From assembly GCA_026989655.1 (NCBI GenBank), contig JALSIX010000001.1:1-36023 (forward strand): 36,023 nt of DNA. The letters run 5' to 3'. The stretch comes from Caldilineaceae bacterium. Its GTDB lineage: Bacteria; Chloroflexota; Anaerolineae; Caldilineales; Caldilineaceae. The position numbers and the translations under genes are program-made. Each line of letters starts with the position of its first letter. Within the stretch, counting starts at the first letter, position 1. Positions 14,085 to 34,365 of this stretch are shown here, piece after piece. The notes beneath the pieces are model-generated. The model was not told where the DNA came from. It saw only the letters and a list, made by a program, of their open reading frames with translations, and searched no databases.

Positions 14085-14129
14085 AGGGCCAACCTGTGGA
14101 CAGGCACCTTCCCAGCCACACATGGGCCG

Positions 14130-14358
14130 ATGCGCGGCGAGAGAGATCCCGGAGCCTGGAGCGTTCGGGGCGCCGAAGGGGCAAACCGCTCCCGGGAAGC
14201 CACACCGGGGCGGTGACACTCTCAGGCAAAAGGATCGTCGCGACGGGCACCTCTGGAAAGTGTCTCGGGTCCCTCTGCGAAAGGGCCCAGGCCACCGAAG
14301 GGGCAAACCGCTCCCTGGACCTTCCCAGGGGCGGCCAATCTCTCAGGTCCACGACAGA
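14130..14358 (+). promoter_or_regulatory. Tandem glycine riboswitch (two aptamers)
   Basis: Aptamer 1 (about 14133-14240) is closed by CGCGGCGA pairing with TCGTCGCG, with one G.U. It contains GCCGAAGGGGCAAACCGCTC and then GACACTCTCAGGCAAAAGG. Aptamer 2 (about 14247-14358) is closed by CCTCTG and CAGAGG. It contains CACCGAAGGGGCAAACCGCTC and CCAATCTCTCAGGT. The GAAGGGGCAAAC and CTCTCAGG blocks are the glycine aptamer signatures, and each occurs twice. Because gcvP follows, glycine binding probably turns expression on so excess glycine is degraded; this is known for the family and inferred here. Confidence 0.96.
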
Positions 14359-14394
14359 GGAGGCGGGCATTCCCCTGGGATGCCCGCCTTTTGT
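14359..14394 (+). terminator. Riboswitch-controlled intrinsic terminator
   Basis: AGGCGGGCAT (14359-14368) pairs with ATGCCCGCCT (14378-14387), followed by TTTTGTTTG. It begins directly after the closing stem of aptamer 2, so stabilising that aptamer could hinder or allow terminator folding. It is the likely expression platform. Confidence 0.85.
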
Positions 14395-28106: not shown

Positions 28107-28134
28107 ATTGTAACACAACGCCCTAGCCGGTCAG
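28107..28134 (-). promoter_or_regulatory. Promoter of the DUF4013-like gene
   Basis: On the minus strand CTGACC (28134-28129) and TACAAT (28112-28107) are separated by 16 bases. The -35 box lies inside the last codons of gatB. Confidence 0.5.
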
Positions 28135-29637
28135 CTTTTCAACCAGACGGCGACGCAGGGTCTGGGGGTCGGCCTGCCCCCGAGTGGCCCGCATCACCTG
28201 GCCCATGAAGAAGCCCAAGAGCTTCTCCTCGCCGGCCCGATATCGGACCACCTCCTCGGGGTGGCGGGCCAGGACCTCCTGGATGGCCCTGTCGATGACG
28301 TCCGTATCCTGGACCAGGGCCAGGCCCTCTCGCTCCACGATGGCTTGGGGCGCGTCGCCCGTGGCGTACATGGCCTCCAGGACCTTCTTGGCCGTGTTCA
28401 GGTTGATGACCTTCTCGTCCACCAGGCGCAACAGAGCGGCCAACTGCTCCGGCCGGATCTTGGTCTCCGCGATCTGGCGGAGGTCCTGGCCCGTTCCCTC
28501 CGCGTAGAGCAGCCGGAAGAGCTCACCGGTGATCCAGTGGGCGACCCGCTGGGGCCGCCCCTCCTGGGTGCCGTAGGCCGCGACCGCGGCCTCGAAGAAC
28601 TCGGCCACCTGACGCTCCTCCGTCAGGGTCCGGGCATCCACGGCCCGGATCCCCCACTCGGCCTGGTAACGGCGGCGTTTGGCATCGGGCAGCTCGGGCA
28701 GGGTGGCGGCCACCGCGTCCACCCACTCCCGGCGCACCTCCAGGGGGGGCAGGTCTGGATCCGGAAAGTACCGGTAGTCCTCGCTGGTCTCCTTGGTCCG
28801 CTGGAGAACCGTCCGCTGACGGGCCTCGTCCCAGCCCATGTTGACCTGTTCCACCGCGCCGCCGGCCTCCAGGATCTGGATCTGGCGGGCGGCCTCGTAG
28901 GCGATGGCGTTCCGGACCGCGCGGAAGCTGTTCAGGTTCTTCACCTCCACCTTGGTGCCGAACTCGCCCCGGGCGGCCTGTTCCCAGGTGCGGACGCTGA
29001 TGTTGGGCTCGCAGCGCAGGGCCCCCTTCTCCATGTCGCCGCTGTTCACCTCCAGGTAGCGCAGGAGGGTGCGCAGCTTGGTGAGGAAGGCGTAGGCCTC
29101 GTCCGGACTGTGGATGTCCGCCTCGGTGACGATCTCCAACAGGGGCACGCCGGCCCGGTTCAGGTCCACCAGGGTGTGGCCGTCCACGTGGAGGTTCTTG
29201 CCCGTGTCCTCCTCCAGGTGGGCCCGGTGGATGCGGATGCGCTTGGATTCGCCGGTGTCCAGCTCGATCTCCACCCAGCCATCCCGGCACAGGGGATACT
29301 CGTACTGGGAGATCTGGTAGCCCTTGGGCAGGTCCGGGTAGTGGTAGTTCTTCCGGGCGAAGACGGCCAGGGGCTGGATCTGGCAGTTCAGGGCCAGCCC
29401 GGTCTTGATGGTGGCCTCCACCGCGGCCCGATTGGCCACGGGCAGGGCCCCAGGCATGCCCAGACACACGGGACAGGTGTGGGTGTTGGGGGGGGCTCCC
29501 TGGTAGTCCGCGGGGCAACCGCAGAACATCTTGGACTGGGTGAGCAGCTGGGCATGGACCTCCATGCCCACCACCACCTGGTATCTATGGCGATACGCCT
29601 CCAGCACGGCTGCCGGATCCCGGATCCGGTCGGTCAT
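28123..29637 (-). CDS. gatB: Aspartyl/glutamyl-tRNA amidotransferase subunit B
   Basis: This 504-residue protein is the kinase-like subunit of GatCAB, which converts Glu-tRNA(Gln) and/or Asp-tRNA(Asn) to the amide forms. The N-terminal [19 protein letters not shown] begins the catalytic cradle. The zinc site is CGCP with CPVC about 18 residues on. [13 protein letters not shown] and [12 protein letters not shown] are conserved catalytic-domain motifs. The C-terminal helical and tail (YqeY-like) domains end the protein. The start at 29637 has a weak GGGGGA upstream; the open frame extends 24 residues further without family similarity. It lies 68 bases after thrS on the same strand. gatA and gatC are not in the window. 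Confidence 0.95.
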
Positions 29638-29705
29638 GGCATCCCCCGTGGTCGTCGTGTCGCGGCCAGGGAAGGGACAGGGGCTCCAGGCCCCCGGCCC
29701 CACCC

Positions 29706-31532
29706 TCACAGCTCGGCAGAACGGGTCGCTATACGCTGGGTGACCAGGGCCACGAAGGCCTCCAACGACATATCATTTTGCCGCGAGCCGTCCCGTTTGC
29801 GCAAGGCCACGGTGTGGTTCGCCTGCTCCCGGTCTCCCACCACCAGCATGTAGGGCACCTTCATGAGCTGGGCCTGCCGGATCTTGTAGTTCATGCGCTC
29901 CGGGCCCAGGTCCACCTGGACCCGGACCCCCGCGTCCACCAGGCGGCGGTGGACCCGGACCGCGTACTCCTGATGGGCGTCGGTGATGGGGATCACCCGA
30001 ACCTGCTCCGGCGCGAGCCAGACCGGGAAGTTCCCCGCGTAGTGCTCGATGAGGAAGCCGATGAGCCGTTCGTGGGTGCTCAGGGGCGCCCGGTGGATGC
30101 ACAGGGGCGTCTCCTCCTGGCCCTGACGGTTGATGAACTTCAGGTGGAAGCGCTCGGGCACCGCGAAGTCCACCTGGTTGGTGGCCAGGGTGAACTCCCG
30201 GCCGATGGCGCTCCAGATCTGGACGTCGATCTTGGGGCCGTAGAACGCGGCCTCGTCCGGCACCTCCACGAACTCCACGCCGCCATGCTCCAGGGCCCGG
30301 CGCACCATCTCCTCGGTCTTCTGCCATAGCCGGGGATTGTCCACGTATTTCTTGCCCAGCTTCCGGGGGTGGTGGGTGCTCAGCCGCATGACGTAGCGGT
30401 CGATGCCGAACAGCTCGAAGTAGAACTTGTACAGGTCCACCACCGCGAGGAACTCCTCCTCGAACTGCTCCTCGGAGCAGTAGATGTGGGCGTCGTTCAT
30501 CTGCAGGGAGCGGACCCGCATGAGGCCGAAGAGCTCACCGCTCTTCTCGTAGCGGTAACAGGTGCCGTACTCTGCCAGCCGCAGGGGCAGATCCCGGTAG
30601 GAACGGGTCTTGGACGCGAAGATCTTGTGGTGGAAGGGGCAGTTCATGGGCTTGACGTAGTAGCGCACCCCCTCCATCTCCATGGGCGGGAACATGCTCT
30701 CCGCGTAGTAGGGCAGGTGGCCGCTGCGGATGAACAGGTCCTCCTTGGTGACGTGGGGGGTGCGGACCCGAAGGTAGCCCCGCCGGTCCTCCTGCTCCTT
30801 GGCCAGCTTCTCCAGCTCCTCCACCAGGATGGCCCCCCGGGGCAGCCAGAGCGGAAGGCCGGGGCCCACCTCCTCGTCGAAGGTGAAGAGCTCCAGCTCC
30901 CGGCCCAGCTTCCGGTGGTCCCGCTTTCGAGCCTCCTCGAGCTGGCGCAGGTACTCCTTCAGCTCCTTCCGGGTCCGCCAGGCCGTGCCGTAGATCCGCT
31001 GGAGCATGGGCCGGCTCTCGTCGCCCCGCCAATAGGCCCCGGCCACGCTCAGGAGCTTGAACGCGTCCGGGGGGATCTGGCCCGTATGCTCCACATGGGG
31101 CCCGCGACAGAGGTCCTCGAAGCCGTCGTGGCGGTAGGTGCTGATGACCGGTCTCTCCTCGGCCTCGTTGCCCCACTCGTCCACCTCCCCCTTCTCCAGC
31201 CCCTCGATGAGCTCCAGCTTGTAGGGCTGGTCCTTGAAGAGGGCCCGGGCCTCCTCCGGGCTCACCTCCCGGTAGACGAAGGGGTGCTTCTCCGCGATGA
31301 TCTGGCGCATGCGCTTCTCGATCTTCTCCAGGTCCTCCGGGGTGAACGTACGAGGGCGTCCCTCCGCATCCACCCCCAGGTCGAAGTCGTAGTAGAACCC
31401 CGTGTCGATGGGGGGCCCGATGCCCAGCTTGGCCTCCGGATACAGCTCCAGCACGGCCTGGGCCAGGACATGGGCCAGGCTGTGGCGGATCCTGTAGAGA
31501 TCGTCCTTTTCCACTTCCCGGTACTTCGCCAT
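29706..31532 (-). CDS. thrS: Threonyl-tRNA synthetase without the TGS domain
   Basis: This class II synthetase of 608 residues charges tRNA-Thr. It begins at the editing (N2) domain: [19 protein letters not shown] gives the HxxxH editing motif, with its Cys partner in [12 protein letters not shown]. The catalytic core has the zinc ligands in [10 protein letters not shown] and, further on, the His of the THER/THHP region. Motif 2 is in [20 protein letters not shown]. The anticodon-binding domain starts near [12 protein letters not shown]. The N-terminal TGS (N1) domain, about 60 residues in E. coli ThrRS (642 residues), is absent; the ATG at 31532 has GGGAGG just upstream, so this is not a start error. 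It follows the M20 peptidase gene by 68 bases. Confidence 0.96.
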
Positions 31533-31600
31533 GATCTCCCTCCCCAGATCCCAACACTTCGGATTCCGGATACGCCTGCACGCGCACTCCCACGCGGGTT

Positions 31601-32818
31601 TCAGCCCCCGTTCCCCGGCCCTCCCAGCCAGTGGGCAGCCCACCAGGTCAGGCAGAGGAGCTGCCGCATCCCCTGGACCAGGGGGCCGAGCGCGATCCAC
31701 TCGCTCAGGCGGTGTGCATCGCCCCCCTCCGTGAGCCCGATGCACACCGCGGGGATGCCCCGGCTCAGGGGCACATTGGCATCCGTGCTGCTGATGCGAA
31801 AGTCCCGTCGCTCCCGGACCCGGAGACGGGCCAACACCGCGGACGCGGCCTGGACCAAGGGGTGGTCCTCGGGGATGCCCCCGGCCGGACGATGGCCGAT
31901 CTGGACCATGTGGACGGTGACCTGGGTGTGGAGCCGCCGGTGTTCGCTCCGGTGCCGTTCCACCATCCGGCGGACCTGTTCATCCAGCCAGGCCAGGGTC
32001 TCCGGGGCCTCGCTGCGGAGATCCAGCTCCAGCTCCGCATGGTCGGCGATGGTGTTCACCGAGCGCCCTCCCTGGATGCGGCCGATGTTGAAGCTGGTCC
32101 GGGGCTTCCGGGGCACCTGCAGGTGCGCGATCTCCGCGGCCAGGGCGACCAGGGCATGGACCGCGCTGGCCACGCCGAAATCGCCCCAACTGTGCCCCCC
32201 CGGGGCCTGGACCGCGATCCGGTAACGGCGGACCCCCAGACCTCGATGGACCACTCGCCCCAGCCCCATGCCCTCCAGCACGATGGCCGCGCCCAGCCCC
32301 GGAGCCCGGCCGTGGAGGCGGTCCACCGCGGCCCGCATCCCCTTCAGATCGCCCAGGCCCTCCTCGTTGCTGTTGGCCACCAGCCACACGTCCACCGGCG
32401 GTGTGGGAAGCCGGACCAGGCTCTCGGCCAGGGTGACCAGGCCAGCGACCCCCACGGAGTTGTCCCCGATCCCCGGGCCCGAGAGCCGATCCCGTTCCGG
32501 CTCTCGGCGCAGGGCCAGGTCCGTGCCCGGAGGGAAGACCGTGTCCATGTGGGCGCTGACCAACAGACCTGGGCCCGGGCGCCGCCCGGGAACCCGGGCG
32601 TAGACGTTGAGGAGCGCGTCCCGCTCCACCCGCTCCAGCCCCAGCTCGCGGAAGGCCGCCTCCACCCAGGCCGCACGCGCGCCCTCCTGCCCGGTGGGCG
32701 CGGGGATCTGTTGGACCGCGACCGCTCGCTCCACCAGGCTCTCCTGCTCCTGCGCGTATCGCTCCATCTCGGCCTGAAGAGGCCCCAGAGGAGCCAGGCC
32801 CTCCAATGTCCTGTCCAT
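31601..32818 (-). CDS. M20-family metallopeptidase
   Basis: This 405-residue zinc peptidase/deacylase is of the ArgE/DapE/CPG2/PepT class. Metal ligands are visible in order: SAHMDTVF (His and catalytic Asp), GIGDNSVG (bridging Asp), NSNEEGLGD (general-base Glu and ligand Glu), and GGDAHRLSEW near the C-terminus (ligand His). The dimerisation-domain His is in QAPGGHSWGDFG. It probably cleaves a dipeptide, tripeptide or N-acyl amino acid in the cytoplasm; no signal peptide is present. GAGGT seven bases before the ATG at 32818 fixes the start; an in-frame ATG at 32836 lies just upstream. The T-box terminator ends 23 bases before this start, making it the first gene of the T-box unit. Confidence 0.9.
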   Translation of the reverse strand: MDRTLEGLAPLGPLQAEMERYAQEQESLVERAVAVQQIPAPTGQEGARAAWVEAAFRELGLERVERDALLNVYARVPGRRPGPGLLVSAHMDTVFPPGTDLALRREPERDRLSGPGIGDNSVGVAGLVTLAESLVRLPTPPVDVWLVANSNEEGLGDLKGMRAAVDRLHGRAPGLGAAIVLEGMGLGRVVHRGLGVRRYRIAVQAPGGHSWGDFGVASAVHALVALAAEIAHLQVPRKPRTSFNIGRIQGGRSVNTIADHAELELDLRSEAPETLAWLDEQVRRMVERHRSEHRRLHTQVTVHMVQIGHRPAGGIPEDHPLVQAASAVLARLRVRERRDFRISSTDANVPLSRGIPAVCIGLTEGGDAHRLSEWIALGPLVQGMRQLLCLTWWAAHWLGGPGNGG

Positions 32819-32840
32819 GTCCCGGACCTCACCCATCCAC

Positions 32841-32872
32841 AAAAAACACCCCGCCCAATGGGACGAGGTGTT
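32841..32872 (-). terminator. T-box leader terminator
   Basis: On the minus strand AACACC(T)CG(T)CCC pairs with GGGCGGGGTGTT through two G.U pairs around ATT, followed by six T (32846-32841). It lies just after the T-box sequence, so it is the switchable terminator. Confidence 0.88.
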
Positions 32873-33125
32873 CACCCGCGGTTCCACCCATCTTGCCCAG
32901 GCAGGCCGGAGAAGGCGGCCTCCTGGACCACTCGACGGCCGATAACGGGGCCGGCCGGACCGATTTACTGGGACCGATACAGGCCCGTTCCACCGGTCGC
33001 TCCCAGGGGGTATTCCGGAGGATACAGCACGGCGACTTCCAGCCACGATCGCCGCTCTCTGGGCTGCACCGAGCTCCGTACTCGTCCTGGTCGACGCGTT
33101 CCACCCGCCTCGGTTGTGTCGGCGC
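32873..33125 (-). promoter_or_regulatory. T-box riboswitch, probably threonine-specific
   Basis: The minus strand carries the canonical T-box GGGTGGAACCGCG (32889-32877) directly before a terminator. Upstream, AGAGAG (33060-33055) followed by GGCGA..TCGCC around CGTGGCTGGAAG matches the stem I GA motif and distal loop. The specifier region reads GGAATACCCCCTGGGAGC (about 33016-32999). ACC (Thr) at 33011-33009 is preferred over the overlapping TAC (Tyr). The acceptor-binding TGGA predicts a tRNA with discriminator U, fitting tRNA-Thr better than tRNA-Tyr (A). thrS is the second gene downstream. No clear promoter was found; transcription may begin near 33125 or read through from tRNA-Val. Confidence 0.88.
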
Positions 33126-33131
33126 GCCCTT

Positions 33132-33161
33132 GAAAAGAATGCCCTCTCCGGTGGAGAGGGC
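33132..33161 (-). terminator. Terminator of tRNA-Val
   Basis: On the minus strand GCCCTCTCC and GGAGAGGGC (33161-33141) form a perfect 9-bp stem with a 3-base loop, followed by ATTCTTTT. It separates tRNA-Val from the T-box leader. Confidence 0.85.
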
Positions 33162-33205
33162 AGACACGGAGGCTGAGGAGGGCTGCGCACGGAGGTCGAT
33201 TCAGG

Positions 33206-33279
<74 letters not shown>

Positions 33280-33290
33280 ACTCTGACCCC

Positions 33291-33320
33291 AGTATAGCAC
33301 GACCATCCCCCTCCTGGCAA
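33291..33320 (-). promoter_or_regulatory. Promoter of tRNA-Val
   Basis: Minus-strand TTGCCA (33320-33315) and TATACT (33296-33291) are separated by 18 bases, with the -10 box about 12 bases before the tRNA 5' end. Confidence 0.75.
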
Positions 33321-33372
33321 ATCGGACGGGAAAAGAGCATGCACCGCCGTGGGGCCCAGAACTGCCCAGCCC

Positions 33373-33484
33373 CAGTAATTCACGATTTTAGCCAAACGGA
33401 GGAGTGAGCATCCTCCGATGCGGCATCGCCCTCTGGAATCGGCATCCTCAGATGCCGACTCCGCTACGAATTCGTGAACTGCTG
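33373..33484. repeat. Second palindromic repeat pair (MITE/REP-like)
   Basis: The left end CAGTAATTCACGATTTTAGC (from 33373) and the reverse complement of the right end, CAGCAGTTCACGAATTCGTA (from about 33484), are similar inverted ends. Inside, the right arm on the minus strand starts GTAG (33467-33464) and forms GGAGTCGGCATC-TGAG-GATGCCGATTCC. The left arm has CGGAGGA/TCCTCCG (33397-33417) and GCATC-CTCC-GATGC (33408-33421). The layout is an inverted pair of GTAG-headed hairpins like one unit of the 3888-4735 array, with different sequence. The rest of 33297-33490 holds no gene. Confidence 0.65.
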
Positions 33485-33492
33485 AACCCCCT

Positions 33493-34365
33493 TCAGCGCC
33501 CAGGGGCCAAGGGCCCCGGCGACATCGCGGCGTGGACCTCCCGACGTCGACGCCGGGGATCCGCCGCGAACACCCCCAGGAAGACGGCGGTGGCCACCAG
33601 CACCATGGTCGGGCCAGAGGCCACATCCAGGTAGAAGCTGATGTAGAGCCCGACCACGTTGGAGGCCACGCCCAGGGCCGCAGCCACGGCCATCATGGAG
33701 GGAACCCGCCGCGCCAACAGGGACGCGGTGGAGGCAGGGGTCACCAACATGGCGATCATCAGGGCCAGCCCCACGGTCTGCAGCGAGGCCACGATGGTGA
33801 TGGCCAACATCACCAACAGCAGATAGCGAAGCCCCCGCACGGGCAGCCGCAGGACCACAGCCAGGATGGGATCGAAGGCCATGACCAGGAGCTCTTTGTA
33901 GAAGAGGACCACCAGGAGGAGTACCAGGATCCCCAGGACCACGATGAGCCGCAGGTCGTCGTCCGACACCCCCAACACGTTGCCGAAGAGGATGTGGGCC
34001 AGGTCGGTGGCGTAGCTCCGGACCGTGCTGAGAAGCGCCACCCCCAGGGCAAAGCTCCCGGCGAAGACAATGCCGATGGCCGTGTCCTCCCGGATCTCCT
34101 CGCGCTCGCTGATGACGCCAATGGCCACCGCGCTGGCCAGGCCGAAGAGGAGGGCTCCCAGCGCCAGGGGCCAGCCCACCAGGAAGGCCAGCACGATGCC
34201 GGGCAGAATGGCATGGGCCAGGGCATCGCCGAAGAAGGCCATGCCCTGGAGGACGAGAAAGGTGCCCAGGACCGGGCAGACGATGCCCACGGTCACCGCG
34301 GCCACCAGGGCCCGCACCATGAACGGAAAGCGGAGAGGGTCCAGAAGCCAGGCCAGGATCTCCAC
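33493..34365 (-). CDS. Metal ABC transporter permease (ZnuB/MntB/SitC family)
   Basis: This 290-residue protein has eight to nine membrane segments and belongs to the ABC-3 permease family, which imports zinc, manganese or iron. The N-terminal PFMVRALVAAVTVGIVCPVL and LVLQGMAFFGDALAHAILPG are family hallmarks, as is LVTPASTASLLARR in the second half. A GTG at 34365 is proposed as the start because WLLDPLRFPFMVRAL aligns with the usual N-terminus; the next ATG (34320) would cut into it. It begins 12 bases after the ATPase stop. The substrate-binding lipoprotein gene is not visible next to it. The metal cannot be told from sequence. Confidence 0.88.
   Translation of the reverse strand: MEILAWLLDPLRFPFMVRALVAAVTVGIVCPVLGTFLVLQGMAFFGDALAHAILPGIVLAFLVGWPLALGALLFGLASAVAIGVISEREEIREDTAIGIVFAGSFALGVALLSTVRSYATDLAHILFGNVLGVSDDDLRLIVVLGILVLLLVVLFYKELLVMAFDPILAVVLRLPVRGLRYLLLVMLAITIVASLQTVGLALMIAMLVTPASTASLLARRVPSMMAVAAALGVASNVVGLYISFYLDVASGPTMVLVATAVFLGVFAADPRRRRREVHAAMSPGPLAPGR

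Follow-up and report, generated by a model that had tools for sequence, protein, structure and literature searches.

A threonine T-box leader behind a tRNA-Val gene and ahead of an M20 peptidase-like gene and thrS in Caldilineaceae

Results

Genes at the locus

The window analysed here is the whole 36,023-nt stretch of contig JALSIX010000001.1 from a Caldilineaceae bacterium. Towards its end, the minus strand carries a promoter-like site, a tRNA-Val(GAC) gene and a T-box leader, followed by three consecutive protein genes separated by gaps of 68 nt: an M20 family metallopeptidase-like gene (31601..32818, 405 amino acids), thrS for threonine--tRNA ligase (29706..31532, 608 amino acids) and gatB (28123..29637). 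The thrS product scores 654.7 bits against TIGR00418, above the cut-off of 383.65.

The M20 protein exceeds the Pfam cut-offs for PF01546 (M20, 59.5 bits) and PF07687 (M20_dimer, 46.5 bits), and none of the 25 named NCBIfam M20 models listed (dapE, argE, pepT-like and others) is passed, the best score being 69.6 bits against a cut-off of 357. Its closest solved structure is the poly(aspartic acid) hydrolase 7LJH (1.2e-56; the next is at 2.3e-09), which together with 7LJI we take to be PahZ2. The motifs HxDT, GDN/GDD, NEEG/GEEG, STD and AH, presumably the metal ligands, are kept in comparison with 7LJH/7LJI. The relation to this hydrolase is one of sequence, while the genomic setting differs. 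On these matches the protein is best called an M20 exopeptidase-like enzyme.

The T-box leader

We searched the region with covariance models and found that cmscan matches RF00230 (T-box) over its full model length at 33103-32856 on the minus strand, scoring 97 bits (E 2.6e-20) where the gathering score is 93. This agrees with the first-pass annotation, which had proposed a T-box at 32841-33125 from the letters alone, and those coordinates fit. The genome has five T-box matches in all, and this leader alone lies above the gathering score. Each of the parts named in that annotation was located on the minus strand: the AGAGAG motif of stem I (33055..33060), an ACC specifier (33009..33011), the T-box sequence GGGTGGAACCGCG (32877..32889) and a terminator hairpin with six T (32841..32873; hairpin at about 32873-32846, T tract at 32846-32841; -20.1 kcal/mol as folded). 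The antiterminator (32860..32889) includes GGGTGGAACCGCG and its UGGA, which would pair with U73-CCA of a tRNA. Antiterminator and terminator are mutually exclusive, as ACACCTCGTCCC is used by both, and the six T follow.

An alignment of 17 leaders (the window and 16 relatives) shows that ACC, UGGA, AGAGA and the antiterminator core are invariant. When the Rfam structure is laid on these leaders, 92.2% of the cells pair, a percentage biased upward by the derivation of the structure from a fit to one aligned sequence. Changes on both sides, which are less exposed to this bias, occur in 29 of 47 pairs, and the covariation value of 0.515 compares with a shuffled mean of 0.227, is reached by none of 500 shuffles and falls to at most 0.117 when the structure is slid. 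The short helix 4 pairs in 53% of cells only. A terminator follows the leader in 19 of the 20 family loci in which a T-box precedes the M20 gene (the exception is G009) and in only 9 of 17 loci scanned beyond these. We conclude that the element at 32856-33103 is a genuine transcription-terminating threonine T-box, and we expect it to work by antitermination in the cell.

Threonine specificity

Three lines of evidence support threonine as the cognate amino acid of this leader: the invariance of ACC, the match of UGGA with U73 and the presence of thrS downstream. The model places the specifier loop of the window as GAA-U-ACC-C. Because the flanking bases vary among the 17 leaders, ACC alone is constant in the specifier region. 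A purine is usual after the specifier codon; here ACC is followed by A in 11 of the 17 leaders and by C in the other 6, so that the purine is absent in the window and five others. The first-pass annotation had also predicted from the UGGA bulge a tRNA with U73, and the acceptor ends, read by eye, agree: all three tRNA-Thr of the genome (GGU, UGU, CGU) have U73 and tRNA-Tyr has A73. The tRNA-Gly of the genome likewise has U73, and neither the specifier nor thrS fits glycine.

The window's GAAUACC also contains the tyrosine codon UAC one base upstream of the proposed reading, which would make this a tyrosine T-box. That U is replaced by A or G in the 16 other leaders, confining UAC to the window, while UGGA cannot pair with A73 of tRNA-Tyr and the synthetase gene downstream is thrS, not tyrS. 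Neither a TAC specifier by alignment nor a tRNA-Thr with A73 was found, and on the tRNA discriminators and the specifier alignment we reject tyrosine specificity, leaving it a negligible chance.

Conservation of gene order in Caldilineaceae

We compared the locus across 37 Caldilineaceae genomes (its own and 36 others). The T-box is followed by the M20 gene in 20 of them (G000, G001, G003-G006, G008-G011, G013, G017, G018, G020, G022, G023, G026, G027, G032, G034), 12 differ, and five are uninformative, with genes absent or truncated at the edge of a contig (G002, G012, G014, G016, G030). Wherever the contig allows, thrS comes next after M20; a contig break lies between them in G008 and G017, and the two are separated by 0.8-1.7 kb in G004, G006, G008, G009, G010 and G020. 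For the unit proposed at first, of M20, thrS and possibly gatB, this conserved order upholds the first two genes and gives little support to the third: tblastn detected no gatB in the other loci examined, some of which end soon after thrS, and we rejected a conserved gatB link.

Two genera depart from this arrangement. In g8 (eight genomes), tRNA-Val and the order M20, thrS are retained and no T-box was found there; by eye, four of its loci (L178, L189, L193, L194) have a repeat-containing lipoprotein-like ORF at the T-box position, between tRNA-Val and M20-thrS. In g16 (four genomes), a weak T-box (32-44 bits) lies directly before thrS and no M20 match was detected. Outside the family, one of 24 class genomes (G055) has an M20 match below 1e-30, on another contig than its thrS. 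A survey of M20 homologue loci (L101-L159) returned three Caldilineaceae loci with thrS and 56 loci from elsewhere with neither a thrS match nor an exact T-box motif, several of them on short contigs; on this survey we rejected M20 homologues outside Caldilineaceae as neighbours of a T-box or thrS.

A 52-row thrS tree places g16 as the sister group of a 29-row clade (95/89) to which the M20 genomes belong, and g8 forms one nested clade. G056, which belongs to another family and has a T-box before thrS without M20, is nested too (84/93), so that a loss or transfer is needed. Most simply, M20 would have been gained once, between T-box and thrS, and the T-box lost once, in g8; that g16 lost M20 is conceivable as well.

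Non-synthetase genes were also seen first after other T-boxes. By eye, L215 (G041) has an EamA-like transporter gene between a Thr T-box and thrS, an independent insertion where the window has M20. L079, on contig C52 of the window's own genome, has a T-box followed by an AlaX-like gene, a transposase-like ORF and ileS (by eye), a further T-box case with a non-synthetase gene first.

Linkage to tRNA-Val

Directly upstream of the T-box lies a tRNA-Val(GAC) gene (33204..33279, minus strand) that is conserved in relatives. The first-pass annotation was silent on this linkage and did not remark that no promoter can be recognised between tRNA-Val and the T-box. A promoter-like site, TTGCCA-18-TATACT (10 of 12 positions; 33291..33320, minus strand), ends 11 nt before the tRNA and is the only sigma-70-like site on either strand in 29500-33500 (shuffle mean 0.4). 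The transcription unit likely reaches upstream to the tRNA-Val gene and this site, to 33320.

By ARAGORN, 19 of the 20 loci with T-box and M20 have tRNA-Val(GAC) upstream in the same orientation, and in G006 the ends of a tRNA-Val are visible around a run of N. The 19 measured gaps between tRNA and leader are 4, 5, 10, 10, 15, 15, 37, 41, 43, 44, 44, 57, 64, 79, 97, 99, 100, 108 and 110 nt (median 44 nt, range 4-110), 11 of the 19 being 4-44 nt. The thrS T-box of G015 and G029 likewise has a tRNA-Val ahead of it, as do those of seven loci from other families (G041, G042, G046, G048, G049, G054, G060), and in G021 the tRNA-Val lies 1.8 kb away. A site of at least 8 of 12 ends 11-19 nt before the tRNA in 15 of 19 scored loci, with a shuffled p of at most 0.05 in 10 of those; against this, the site is weak or elsewhere in G009, G010, G023 and G032. 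Scored loci without an adjacent tRNA have a promoter of 11-12 of 12 just before the leader in 6 of 8 cases, and G021 and G025 show neither an adjacent tRNA nor a good site before the leader. Mainly because most loci lacking the tRNA have their own promoter and the promoter-like site of the window lies before the tRNA, we infer co-transcription: the T-box probably forms the 3' part of the tRNA transcript.

Counting against this, the window's gap is 100 nt long and holds a terminator-like hairpin with a weak T tract (TTCTTTTC; 33140..33162, minus strand); such a hairpin between tRNA and leader was seen in 4 of 19 scanned family loci with T-box and M20, the window included. A promoter could also lie inside the tRNA-Val gene, whose anticodon arm holds TTGACA; with TCAAGT or TCGAGC/T this makes 8-9 of 12 before many leaders (shuffled p 0.00-0.25). 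Since TCAAGT agrees with the -10 at 3 of 6 positions only, we take these sites to be chance matches. In g16 (G015, G029), a gap of 116-117 nt with a TACAAT box suggests that the leader has its own promoter. Other T-boxes of the window's genome (L077, L078; contigs C122, C77) lie, by eye, before trpE (with trpS and trpG further on), valS and serS, and at these two loci none has a tRNA directly upstream.

tRNA and T-box tandems in the class and phylum

We then scanned 396 genomes of the class with a pattern consisting of a tRNA T-arm, 22-82 nt and stem I. As a stricter first pattern had found few genomes (7 of 396), it was loosened, giving 57 places in 56 genomes and none with a reversed-pattern control. 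The pattern misses gaps above about 60 nt, including that of the window, so that this count is a lower bound. All 57 places were examined (61 loci, of which four are duplicates), and ARAGORN confirmed a tRNA at 56, the exception being G372, leaving 55 genomes with a confirmed tandem. Row L244 (no tRNA) was dropped, as were L278 (no tRNA) and a second match in G069 from the phylum draw described below.

The linked tRNAs are 30 tRNA-Val(GAC), 16 tRNA-Ala, 9 tRNA-Thr(CGU) and 1 tRNA-Leu(GAG). By tblastn, thrS or M20 follows 27 of the 30 tRNA-Val places (two of the three misses have less than 300 nt left, and L241 has 1500 nt with no match), valS follows all nine tRNA-Thr, leuS or ilvE all 16 tRNA-Ala (ilvE then leuS in L255, L256 and L274) and asd the tRNA-Leu; one query each for valS, leuS, ilvE and asd came from the tandem loci themselves. 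NCBIfam models identified valS, leuS (twice), ilvE, asd, serS and thrS (twice) in eight representatives, and the specifiers read are GUC (valS), CUC (leuS), ACC (asd) and UCC (serS). The tandem kinds are tRNA-Val, Thr T-box, thrS; tRNA-Thr, Val T-box, valS; tRNA-Leu, Thr T-box, asd; tRNA-Ala, Leu T-box, leuS or ilvE and leuS; and tRNA-Val, Ser T-box, serS. In the kinds read, the linked tRNA is not the ligand, a possible reason being that a cognate tRNA newly made in cis, still uncharged, would trigger the switch. In L224-L232, nine genomes of one genus, tRNA-Thr(CGU) stands directly before a T-box (specifier GUC in L224) and valS, the mirror image of tRNA-Val before a Thr T-box. L265 (G102) has tRNA-Leu(GAG), then a Thr T-box (ACC), then asd.

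A phylum draw of 151 genomes (the window's own, 17 of the same class and 133 others) gave the pattern in 10 genomes at 11 places. Five of these genomes are from other classes, with tRNA-Val before thrS in three and tRNA-Ala before leuS in two.

tRNA-Ala inside T-box leaders

In 13 loci of 13 genomes (L255, L256, L263, L264, L266-L271, L276, L280, L282), before leuS or ilvE, a tRNA-Ala(GGC) separates stem I from the T-box sequence, and a tRNA-Ala(CGC) stands directly upstream of these leaders. In all 13, a single RF00230 match covers the full model (positions 1-219) and extends across the nested tRNA; L266 and L282 score above the gathering score and the rest at 51.9-91.9 bits. In the alignment of L270, the helix preceding the antiterminator carries the insert in its loop. 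With helix arms fixed by the model, at least 6 of 7 pairs form in 10 of 11 loci (L267 and L276 have no definable arms). Among nine distinct arm pairs, the own mean is 6.4 against 4.7 for cross pairs, a weak test in which 18 of 72 cross pairs also reach 6, and a longest-stem test of the helix around the nested tRNA gave no separation (own 7.2, cross 6.7). The 13 genomes fall in seven families, one of them outside the class, which makes an assembly error unlikely. Maturation of the tRNA should cut such a switch in two. We rejected L242 as a further nested case, as a chance stem I motif precedes its tRNA-Val.

Taken with these nested leaders in 13 genomes, the tandems lead us to favour somewhat the view that Chloroflexota repeatedly build T-boxes into tRNA transcripts, in the order promoter, tRNA, T-box for a different tRNA, and synthetase or biosynthesis gene.

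Discussion

The features of the locus and their conservation, namely the T-box anatomy, the threonine specificity, the gene order and the linkage to tRNA-Val, make it probable in our judgement that this threonine T-box is the tail of a tRNA-Val transcript and controls M20-thrS by antitermination. Transcription would start before tRNA-Val(GAC) and run through the tRNA into the leader. With charged tRNA-Thr(GGU) plentiful, the leader's terminator would act and end the tRNA transcript as well. Under threonine limitation, the anticodon of uncharged tRNA-Thr would pair with ACC and its U73-CCA with UGGA, the antiterminator would form and RNA polymerase would continue into M20 and thrS. Processing of the tRNA 3' end would presumably release the leader, and given the hairpin between tRNA and leader in the window, passage may be partial. 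The M20 enzyme might supply threonine from peptides, and the suggestion of the first-pass annotation that threonine starvation also raises peptide breakdown is a plausible hypothesis.

The same leader could instead be an ordinary Thr T-box with its own unrecognised promoter, the tRNA-Val being a mere neighbour whose transcript ends at the hairpin at 33162-33140. The position of this hairpin fits such a view, as do the terminator-like hairpins found within 120 nt after 22 of 36 scanned tRNAs of the same genome and the example of G043 (L047), where by eye tRNA-Asn is followed by a clear terminator, a promoter-like site and then a Ser T-box. However, the best site within the window's gap matches 6 of 12 (p 0.62), gaps of 4-15 nt in G001, G003, G004, G008, G009 and G023 leave no room for a promoter outside the tRNA, and tRNA-Val precedes a Thr T-box in 15 families of the class, so that we consider an ordinary leader unlikely. 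A separate doubt, compatible with the T-box reading, concerns the M20 step only: M20 may be a passenger that came to lie between an old T-box and thrS and takes no part in supplying threonine. In other families thrS mostly follows the T-box directly, and g16, sister to the M20-bearing clade, has no M20. Yet across most of a family M20 has kept its place between T-box and thrS, and it still adjoins thrS in g8 despite no T-box there, and retains its metal-site motifs; a passenger is a serious possibility that we rate slightly below even.

The control of thrS by a T-box has a familiar counterpart, reportedly described by Putzer in 1992 in Bacillus subtilis. The leader here shares with that type (RF00230) stem I, specifier, antiterminator, terminator and control of thrS, and differs from it in that M20 comes first in the unit and that the leader lies right behind a tRNA gene, in many relatives with no room for a promoter. 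Bacterial tRNA-mRNA operons exist, such as the tRNA-tufB unit of E. coli. The arrangement here would likewise join a tRNA and a protein gene in one transcript, whereas its mRNA part starts with a riboswitch that reads another tRNA.

The tRNA linkage, the real interest of the locus, offers comparative evidence for what appears to be a new T-box arrangement. Titles and abstracts, and the available text of PMC12452182, PMC7778990 and PMC2494555, contained no report of tRNA-linked or tRNA-holding T-boxes, subscription literature lying mostly outside this scope, and a term search in PMC7583486 had no match. The word 'peptidase' is absent from the main text, as far as available, of a 2008 T-box survey, a 2020 T-box review and the T-box database paper. 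If the proposed arrangement is true, tRNA synthesis and synthetase control are joined in one RNA, with tRNA maturation, tRNA dosage and synthetase control as parts of one transcript, and a direct test becomes possible of how a T-box acts if its leader arises as the trailer of a tRNA or contains a tRNA gene. M20, conserved under a threonine T-box, is a candidate for connecting amino-acid starvation with the use of peptides.

Elsewhere in the window, two adjacent glycine riboswitch aptamers above the Rfam cut-off lie at 14128-14367 on the plus strand.
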